The translations under genes were made by a program, and so were the position numbers. Under the pieces are notes generated by a model. That model was not told the DNA's origin. It did not search any database and saw only the letters and a list, made by a program, of their open reading frames with translations. A stretch of 64,000 nt of DNA from Verrucomicrobiales bacterium. GTDB taxonomy: Bacteria > Verrucomicrobiota > Verrucomicrobiia > Verrucomicrobiales > DEV007. The number at the start of each line of letters is the position of its first letter. Position 1 is the stretch's first letter. Below are positions 56,402 to 59,325 of the stretch, one piece after another. The DNA is taken from positions 62,001-126,000 of the forward strand of contig DUBC01000007.1 of assembly GCA_012960505.1 (NCBI GenBank). Direction: 5' to 3'.

Positions 56402-56887
56402 TCATTTTCTTGTGTTTTTGACTGAAAAGTTTGGGAGAATGTCATCCTGATCACCATAGAGACCGTTCATTCCGTTTGAGCTGATACGTGTTCGATCATT
56501 TAATTTCCTGAAAATAATAGGTCTTTTCCAGTAATCTACTAGCCGCCCCTCTTTAACTAGCATGCTCCTTTTCCTTAGGTAAATTTTATTCCTAGAGTTG
56601 GTTCCAAGTAATGCATTTATAGTTTCAGTGGAATTGGTTAAAGTTTTAGATTCGGGGTAATCCGTTCTGTATCTTCTTAATGCATCATCGAGGATAATTA
56701 TTAGTTGAGAGGTTGCCTTAGATTGAACGCTGGGCCAGATGAAGAAGTAATATATGATGGATGTGATAAAAATGATAACAGAGCACCAAGTTATTGCGGA
56801 TACGCATCCCTTCCTCATTAAGAAGCTTTCTGTATTCGGTTGAAGAAATTGATCAATGAATTTAAGTAGTACTTTATCCCAATGCAC
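56402..56887 (-). CDS. pseudopilin (GspG)-like protein with unusual N-terminus
   Basis: The 161-residue protein has one transmembrane helix (SAITWCSVIIFITSIIYYFFIW) near residue 30 and a C-terminal half that ends YWKRPIIFRKLNDRTRISSNGMNGLYGDQDDILP, the equivalent of the GspG pattern DPWGxPYxY...SxGxDGxxGTxDDI with its Asp-rich calcium loop. The N-terminus lacks the prepilin cleavage site and GFTLIE motif, so it is not a normal processed pseudopilin. It follows the broken cupredoxin gene after 19 bp and is the last gene of the hemQ-led operon. Confidence 0.65.
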   Translation of the reverse strand: MHWDKVLLKFIDQFLQPNTESFLMRKGCVSAITWCSVIIFITSIIYYFFIWPSVQSKATSQLIIILDDALRRYRTDYPESKTLTNSTETINALLGTNSRNKIYLRKRSMLVKEGRLVDYWKRPIIFRKLNDRTRISSNGMNGLYGDQDDILPNFSVKNTRK

Positions 56888-56906: not shown

Positions 56907-57371
56907 TTATTTTTCTACTTTCAGGATAGCGTTCATTAAACGCCAGTGCCCTGGGAATGTGCAGATAATTGGATAGTCTCCAGCTTTTTTGATTGTGAAT
57001 TTTAATGTTTGATTTCCACCTGGGTTAATGAGTTTGCTGGAATGAAGGATGTCTGGACTAGTTGGGACATAGTTTTTTTTCATTGCCTCAGGATCGGTAA
57101 GCATTGCATCGGCTAGGGATCCTACTTTATCTTTTGTTCAGGGCTTTAGGATGAGCACGTTGTGCTGGAGAAGGTCAGGATTTTTAAATATTAATTCTAT
57201 AGGGACACCCGCCTTGGCTTTGATTTCCGACTGCGCGAACTTCATTTGTGCGGGAGGGTCAGCTTTAGCGGATAGTTTGATTACTTGGGTTTTATTCTTT
57301 TTTTCAGTAGCGCCAATACATGCTAATGATAATAAGATTAGAGTTGAGCAAATGAATTTCATATTGTGCAT
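56907..57371 (-). pseudogene. cupredoxin (azurin/auracyanin-like) split by an in-frame TGA
   Basis: Two short open frames in the same phase (56907-57104 and 57138-57371) join into one small blue copper protein of about 154 residues if the TGA at 57138-57140 is read through. It starts with a signal peptide (MKFICSTLILLSLACIG), then IKAKAGVPIELIFKNPDLLQHNVLILKP, the stop codon, TKDKVGSLADAM, YVPTSPDILHSSKLINPGG and ICTFPGHWRLMNAILKV. All type-1 copper ligands are present (His in LQHN, Cys in CTF, His in GHW, Met in RLM). Relatives carry KPG at this point, so TGA probably replaces GGA (Gly). It may be a recent nonsense mutation or a sequence error. It is 6 bp after the Ahb-like gene. Confidence 0.8.
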
Positions 57372-57377
57372 TTATTT

Positions 57378-58475
57378 TTAATCATATTTTTGATGCCATT
57401 CCTTATAAATTTCTGGTGAAATTTCTGATGGTTTGATCTCACTGCGCCCACCCCAAAAGACATTCGTGTATAAGAGATCAATTCCTACTTCTTTAAGATG
57501 TGAATCTATGGCTTGTTTGTGCTCAAGGATCTTGTTTTTGTCTGTCCCATGGACAACCCCCATTACATTTACATTCCCGAAATTATCACCACCTTCTCGC
57601 CAATAGCAATGAGTAAGGATATGGTGTCTTCCGATTTCTGAGCCTGCTTTGAGTTGCATTCCTTCTCGTACCCTCCAATGAAATAAGCCATTGAAGCGAG
57701 TGACTCTTTTGCCGGTGGAGGAAGGCTTAGTGTGTTCAAGGAAAGTTGAAAAACGACCTATAACTTTTTTCTGGTTAAGAGCTTCTGCGATTTCGAAAAA
57801 TTTTTCTAATGGTATATTGAGTCGTTCGGCACGGGCATTCCATGGTTCAGGGCAAATTTCCTCTTGTTTCAGCTCTTCCTTTAATGAAAGTAAAACTTCC
57901 CATTCAATTGGGGAGAGTTCTACTACCTTTGTTGTCATCATTTCGGCTAGAGAATCAGACTTTGATCCTAGTGACATATTTTTCCTTCTAACATGACCTA
58001 CACCTAGAGTGAAAACGCCCTTGGCTGGCATTAGAATATATTTTTCAGCTCCGATGATGTTTTTGATTTTGTTTGCGTGATCTTCTAATGATTCACCTTG
58101 TGGAACTTTAAGGGTTGTCCATAGTTTGAATTCTGATCCGGTGATTTCTCTGTCAGTTGAACGGATTACTACATGCCCGCTGAATGGGTCTTCCTTGAAC
58201 ATGAAGTCAAATGCTTCATCGATCTTGTCATTATCGATTTTCCAAGCGCAAAGAGCGCCGTGAGCGAGTTTAGTTGAAAGTAATGTTTGTCGCACCCTGC
58301 GTATAATACCCGCATGCAGCATGTTTTTTATTCTTTCGATTACGATATCAAGTTCAATTCCTGATTGTTCAGAAATTAGATGGAATGGTTGTCTTTGAAA
58401 TCCTCTGACTAGATCTTCTGAGATTTCTAAGATTTTAGCGTTTATAGGGTCGTCGTGTTCGACAGGAATGATCAT
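57378..58475 (-). CDS. two-halved Lrp/AsnC siroheme-decarboxylase-like protein (AhbA/AhbB)
   Basis: The 365-residue protein consists of two Lrp-like halves. Each has a winged-helix region (QPFHLISEQSGIELDIVIERI near residue 30; WNARAERLNIPLEKFFEIAEAL near 205) and a beta-sheet domain. The second half shows the Ahb/Nir motif HCYWREGGDNFGNVNVMGVVHG. AhbA and AhbB normally are separate chains that together remove two acetate groups from siroheme in the alternative heme pathway; here they seem fused. The neighbour hemQ, 16 bp upstream, belongs to a different heme route, so this protein may be a heme-linked regulator or decarboxylase. Confidence 0.78.
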   Translation of the reverse strand: MIIPVEHDDPINAKILEISEDLVRGFQRQPFHLISEQSGIELDIVIERIKNMLHAGIIRRVRQTLLSTKLAHGALCAWKIDNDKIDEAFDFMFKEDPFSGHVVIRSTDREITGSEFKLWTTLKVPQGESLEDHANKIKNIIGAEKYILMPAKGVFTLGVGHVRRKNMSLGSKSDSLAEMMTTKVVELSPIEWEVLLSLKEELKQEEICPEPWNARAERLNIPLEKFFEIAEALNQKKVIGRFSTFLEHTKPSSTGKRVTRFNGLFHWRVREGMQLKAGSEIGRHHILTHCYWREGGDNFGNVNVMGVVHGTDKNKILEHKQAIDSHLKEVGIDLLYTNVFWGGRSEIKPSEISPEIYKEWHQKYD

Positions 58476-58491
58476 TTATAAGAAATTTGAT

Positions 58492-59325
58492 TTATAGATC
58501 AACCCTTCTAAAGAGCTGATCGAGTGGAAGTTGTAAGCCTATGTAGAAATCTCCAAATTCAGCGTATTTTACAGACACTTCATCATATCTCATTTTATAC
58601 ACGATCCCTTTGATGTCATAGCTGTTGTTGGCAAATAGCGTAACGCCCCACTCTGAGTCATCGAGACCGACGGACCCGGTTATTAGTTGTCTGATTTTGC
58701 CAGCCCATTGGCGTCCGACCTTGCCGTGTTCGGCCATTAGTCTTTTACGTTCATCAAATGGTAGAGCGTACCAGTTAAATGATTCCCCGCGCCTTTTAGC
58801 CATACTGTAAAAACAAAAGACAGGCCAATCTGGCATGTTCGGATATAGCTTATCGTTAGAATATTTGGCCATGTGAGTTTTGAAATCATTGAGAGCGGTT
58901 TCATACTCATCAGAACCTTCCGTGAGATTACGATCAGATTTTAGCGTTTTTTCAGAATATTCTTCTTCAGTTGTCATATAATCACCAGTTTCAGTCATAG
59001 ATAAATAGCTGAAACTTGGAGTCAGAATGTCTGCGCCAAGTGCAAGGGTTAATTGCTTTTCAAATGTATTAGCTAAGTGGAGGTCATCAGTGAGCAGCAT
59101 AAATCCGATGTCTGCTTTAGGGGTCACTATGCTAAAGGAGAGTAATTGTGTCTTCGGAGTGCTTCTTATTTCTTGTATCAGTATGGATAAATCTGTTTTT
59201 GCTTTGAGTCGCTCTTCTTCGCTCAGTAGAGACCATTGTGTGTGATCAATTTGATAAAATAAATGAATTACGTGCCAACCTTCTGTGGGCACGATTGGCG
59301 TTGTCTGAGTGTCGTTGGTGCTCAT
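58492..59325 (-). CDS. hemQ: coproheme decarboxylase HemQ (chlorite dismutase family)
   Basis: HemQ (ChdC) converts coproheme to heme b with peroxide, the last step of the coproporphyrin-dependent pathway. The 277-residue protein has the chlorite-dismutase fold with SFNWYALPFDERKRLMAEHGKVGRQWAG, in which His200 is the expected heme ligand, followed by ITGSVGLDDSEWGVTLFANN and the C-terminal YKMRYDEVSVKYAEFGDFYIG. It heads a minus-strand operon with the Ahb-like gene, the cupredoxin and the pseudopilin-like gene. Confidence 0.9.
   Translation of the reverse strand: MSTNDTQTTPIVPTEGWHVIHLFYQIDHTQWSLLSEEERLKAKTDLSILIQEIRSTPKTQLLSFSIVTPKADIGFMLLTDDLHLANTFEKQLTLALGADILTPSFSYLSMTETGDYMTTEEEYSEKTLKSDRNLTEGSDEYETALNDFKTHMAKYSNDKLYPNMPDWPVFCFYSMAKRRGESFNWYALPFDERKRLMAEHGKVGRQWAGKIRQLITGSVGLDDSEWGVTLFANNSYDIKGIVYKMRYDEVSVKYAEFGDFYIGLQLPLDQLFRRVDL

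Follow-up and report, generated by a model that had tools for sequence, protein, structure and literature searches.

Interrupted cupredoxin gene

The window (the whole stretch of DNA analysed, 64,000 nucleotides, G000:C7:62001-126000, where G000 is the marine Verrucomicrobiales genome under study) contains a blue-copper protein gene that is divided by one in-frame TGA codon, and the question is whether this stop arose recently, is an error in the sequence or marks a read-through site. The list of three was drawn up in the first-pass annotation and stands, with read-through, including selenocysteine insertion, being the least supported of the three. The best explanation is a recent nonsense mutation of this single gene through a GGA-to-TGA change on the G000 lineage, with loss of function (probability of roughly 0.6). 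The gene is composed of the following features.

56907-57371, minus strand: cupredoxin gene with an internal stop, 154 residues on read-through (MHNMKFICS...ILKVEK)
57138-57140, minus strand: in-frame TGA in place of the orthologous GGA (Gly75), from minus-strand translation and orthologue codons
57138-57371, minus strand: first open piece, 77 amino acids, which carries the signal peptide and His67 as its sole copper ligand
56907-57104, minus strand: second open piece, 65 amino acids from an internal ATG, with Cys134, His139 and Met143 and without a signal peptide

The protein likely starts at the ATG at 57362, giving MKFICS..., and the orthologues begin at the equivalent MK; residues are numbered from this Met. 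Minus-strand translation of 57371-56907 yields a single internal TGA followed by a normal TAA terminus, as expected from the initial description of two same-phase frames divided by one TGA. The gene is not a single open reading frame because of the TGA at 57140-57138.

Two Pfam families are hit by the read-through product, PF13473 (Cupredoxin_1, E = 3.7e-9) and PF00127 (Copper-bind, E = 6.6e-9); both matches score over the gathering threshold and span the stop. The cupredoxin domain is preceded by a signal peptide, as judged by eye. The type 1 copper ligands His67, Cys134, His139 and Met143 are all kept, and their columns are invariant in the orthologue alignment. The joined product is thus the complete, signal peptide-bearing cupredoxin with His, Cys, His and Met ligands that the first-pass annotation had predicted.

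The closest solved structures by sequence are auracyanin A (2aan) and azurins. The structure-profile match covers positions 38-149 and aligns the His of QHN and the CTxPGHxxLM ligand motif with auracyanin A. The ligand motif is common to the window cupredoxin and the auracyanin A/azurin-type small blue copper proteins (PDB 2aan and 1rkr; PF00127, PF13473), but the window copy is broken at codon 75. Moreover, even the intact orthologue from the congener G008 falls far below the cut-off of the NCBIfam azurin equivalog TIGR02695 (30.2 versus 105.1 bits).

Orthologues and gene order

The TGA codon corresponds to GGA in four syntenic congeners (87, 77, 67 and 66% identity) and to AAT in a fifth congener (63% identity). 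Of the 39 homologue segments that are at least 45% identical, 35 have Gly in this column, four have Asn, Asp, Glu or Ser (one each) and none has Cys, which substantiates the earlier proposal that the TGA replaces a GGA glycine codon. No internal stop was observed elsewhere among the cupredoxin matches listed from 57 genomes. The GTDB-named relatives are Verrucomicrobiales metagenome-assembled and single-cell genomes, and no relatives were found among viral contigs. Compared with the G008 orthologue, the two 25-residue flanks of the stop are 92% and 84% identical, and this similarity on both sides indicates that the joined frame is not a chance product.

The cupredoxin gene is flanked by the following genes.

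58492-59325, minus strand: HemQ-like gene (chlorite dismutase family), upstream, NF008913 over cut-off
57378-58475, minus strand: fused AhbA/AhbB-like siroheme decarboxylase gene, upstream, with Pfam AsnC_trans_reg2 and NirdL-like HTH matches
56402-56887, minus strand: small membrane protein gene, downstream, without a family match and conserved in synteny

The order HemQ-like, fused AhbA/AhbB-like, cupredoxin, small membrane protein and ThyA is conserved in G001 and G003 and in genomes of another genus, and is partly visible in G002 and G008, where the contigs break off close by. Given the conserved synteny and the intact orthologues with GGA, the locus represents one orthologue with one changed base. 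Two separate genes are ruled out; comparison with sister genomes, which had been proposed as the test, revealed a single uninterrupted open reading frame in each orthologue.

Age of the stop and selective constraint

A codon model with a separate G000 branch gave an omega of 1.77 versus 0.058 elsewhere (P = 3.4e-5), a value that is not different from 1 and that rests on ∼14 changes of the mature region whose direction could be polarised. The neighbouring AhbAB-like gene has an omega of 0.07 on the same branch, and the cupredoxin omega is also raised, to 0.34, on the sister branch G002. By direct count, the G000 mature region contains five synonymous and nine residue-changing differences, not counting codon 51, which is ambiguous, and the codon change at Ser109 (Fisher test, P = 0.0075 versus the neighbouring gene and P = 0.063 versus G002). 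The raised nonsynonymous rate suggests that constraint loosened before the stop arose.

The codon model alone pointed to full neutrality of the cupredoxin over the whole branch, but the kinds of residues accepted contradict it. Eight of the nine G000-lineage changes lead to residues seen in homologues, compared with 33% if nonsynonymous changes fell at random (P = 0.0008). Downstream of the TGA, the same is true of five of six changes (29% expected, P = 0.009). A gene that had been unconstrained since the G002 split should have gathered ∼8-24 untolerated changes downstream of the TGA; the observed number is one. The unconstrained share of the branch is at most ∼20-57% (95% bounds), a rough range that depends on the synonymous rate used, and the tolerated-residue test depends on which homologues were sampled and on small numbers of changes. 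The residue changes fit a protein that was probably constrained until recently. The second half had earlier been described as undecayed, and this description holds with the caveat of the raised nonsynonymous rate. Since the accepted residues contradict full neutrality, they argue for loosened constraint and a recent stop rather than old decay. In our reading, constraint loosened somewhat before a recent stop, or the organism has no stop at all.

Base error as an alternative

The strongest rival holds that the T is a consensus error of the assembly and that the organism has an intact GGA gene and a functional cupredoxin. A single wrong base would suffice, the downstream sequence is undecayed, and nearly every observation fits this explanation as well as it fits a real mutation. 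A second assembly of the same species was looked for and not found.

The quality of the assembly bears on both sides. The stop and tRNA surveys span 1.56 of the 4.01 Mb of G000, and the stop survey uses non-overlapping open reading frames with 349 G008 orthologues and 134 thousand aligned residues. The surveyed 1.56 Mb contains 222 N, and ∼1% of the orthologues are broken. Three frameshift-like breaks were detected in each direction of the G000-G008 comparison (349 orthologues from the G000 side), so the assembly does contain breaks, whether genuine or artefactual. In contrast, the survey revealed no convincing internal nonsense codon in G000 other than the cupredoxin TGA; we read the remaining listed sites as antisense open reading frames or positions near gene ends. 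A single such codon in 134 thousand aligned residues means that substitution errors cannot be frequent. A base error also leaves unexplained the raised nonsynonymous rate, which is confined to the cupredoxin. A base error is possible but the less probable account, and the T is more likely real than not.

In the reverse survey, three of 351 G008 genes carry a single nonsense codon (TAG, TAA and TAA), indicating that a gene with a single nonsense codon is nothing unusual in these assemblies; disrupted genes form a background of ∼1% per assembly here. The three G008 codons lie at G008:C12:26443, G008:C15:42278 and G008:C10:22673 in otherwise conserved genes. A literature search on nonsense codons in metagenome-assembled genomes returned nothing.

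The cupredoxin gene resembles the single-nonsense pseudogenes of bacterial genomes, with one recent stop, no frameshift and intact neighbours and orthologues, and no difference from them was found. The stop is confined to the G000 lineage and the orthologues are intact at the position, as in a pseudogene. The cupredoxin stop is an ordinary one, whether recent, polymorphic or a base error. As one disrupted gene among ∼1% per assembly, it has little significance by itself.

Read-through and selenocysteine

Useful decoding of the UGA, by selenocysteine or a near-cognate tRNA, would give a full-length cupredoxin, possibly with selenocysteine at a non-redox position; this outcome is improbable. If it were true, a Sec-decoding member of the Verrucomicrobiales would translate an interrupted gene into a complete cupredoxin, which would be an unusual example of a metalloprotein that tolerates a stop codon.

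Programmed or leaky read-through by a near-cognate tRNA would insert Trp or another residue at the site and let part of the product reach full length. Basal UGA read-through occurs in bacteria, and the downstream half is preserved. However, the congeners have a sense codon at this position, so there is no conserved read-through site. A suppressor tRNA was not found by ARAGORN in the 1.56 Mb scanned, where the single tRNA with a UCA anticodon is tRNA-Sec. No significant structure lies downstream, and the base after the stop is A, not the C of a leaky context. These observations leave near-cognate read-through with little probability.

Selenocysteine insertion by the genome's own machinery, which would place Sec at position 75, is more doubtful still. 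Neither this machinery nor the Sec reading figured in the first-pass annotation. The genome encodes a tRNA-Sec (G000:C20:79697-79787, 61 bits versus a gathering score of 47) and SelB (G000:C36:19018-20904, 324.6 bits versus a cut-off of 242). Outside the window, a minus-strand gene for a DsbD-like membrane protein (G000:C7:141853) has a TGA in a WUxxC thioredoxin motif (TAVW-U-AVCK) that is shared with G008, and its product is probably a true selenoprotein of this Verrucomicrobiales genus. Based on the tRNA-Sec, SelB and the conserved DsbD-like UGA, selenocysteine decoding is probably real in this lineage. A hairpin is also located after the cupredoxin TGA.

57089-57124, minus strand: hairpin with arms UAGGAUC/GAUCCUG and a 3-bp upper stem

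The hairpin lies 26 nt past the UGA with a G at the second loop position. The bSECIS model specifies a loop of 3-9 nt, an upper stem of 4-16 bp, a G in the first two loop positions and a spacing of 16-37 nt (PMC13188914). The 3-bp upper stem falls short of this model, although the test is a weak one in that the DsbD-like control does not fit either and 32 of 250 random coding sites (13%) do. The arms looked right for a SECIS element, but the folding energy of the hairpin (-9.7 kcal/mol, z = -0.70) is no better than that of shuffled sequences. An Rfam search at the stop site returned no match.

The position itself also argues against selenocysteine. The cupredoxin shares with bacterial selenoproteins an in-frame UGA in an exported protein and a genome with tRNA-Sec and SelB. 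It differs from them in that the site is occupied in its homologues by Gly, Asn, Asp, Glu or Ser and never by Cys, whereas most selenoproteins from the Sargasso Sea have Cys homologues (PMC1088965). Position 75 is not a copper ligand, and the protein has neither a redox motif there nor a bSECIS element that fits the published model. An in-frame TGA in a Sec-decoding genome is, as a caution, not by itself a recoding site.

Genome-wide recoding, which the first-pass annotation had considered unlikely, is refuted. RF2 was detected in G000 (474.8 bits, over cut-off), and TGA terminates 84 of the 356 open reading frames supported by G008 orthologues. The two genes directly downstream of the cupredoxin end in TGA, in agreement with the earlier remark that TGA is a normal stop in the neighbours. 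The tRNA scan and the orthologue stop survey point the same way. Reassignment of UGA to glycine, which would suit the Gly replaced here and is a code that occurs in Gracilibacteria/SR1, is practically negated by RF2, the TGA-terminated frames and the lack of a second TGA opposite Gly in the 349 orthologues.

Predicted consequences of the stop

Under the preferred reading of a recent nonsense mutation, one GGA-to-TGA change would have placed a stop at codon 75 in the gene for an auracyanin/azurin-like cupredoxin, an exported electron-transfer protein. This gene would be the last in a HemQ-AhbAB operon, as the HemQ-like, AhbAB-like and cupredoxin genes probably form one transcription unit. RF2 would read the UGA, and translation would terminate at codon 75. 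The exported fragment would keep one of the four ligands, so a type 1 copper site could not form and function would be lost; judging from the sequence, the truncated product is presumably non-functional. Re-initiation at the ATG at 57104 would yield a cytoplasmic fragment without a signal peptide, and no ribosome site at normal spacing was seen by eye before this ATG. Because the downstream sequence is not decayed, the TGA would be recent or still polymorphic in the population. The loss may be tolerable because G000 contains eight other matches to the cupredoxin (the closest at 60% identity, all free of internal stops), and these paralogues may compensate for it.

Other observations in the window

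An apparent break in ligA at the edge of the window was dismissed; the listed open reading frame began at an internal ATG, and the frame runs on intact beyond the window. Each half of the fused AhbA/AhbB-like gene scores under its NCBIfam cut-off. At 57378-59325, the HemQ-like and AhbA/AhbB-like genes, which are parts of two different haem pathways, adjoin each other, and they do so in two genera.
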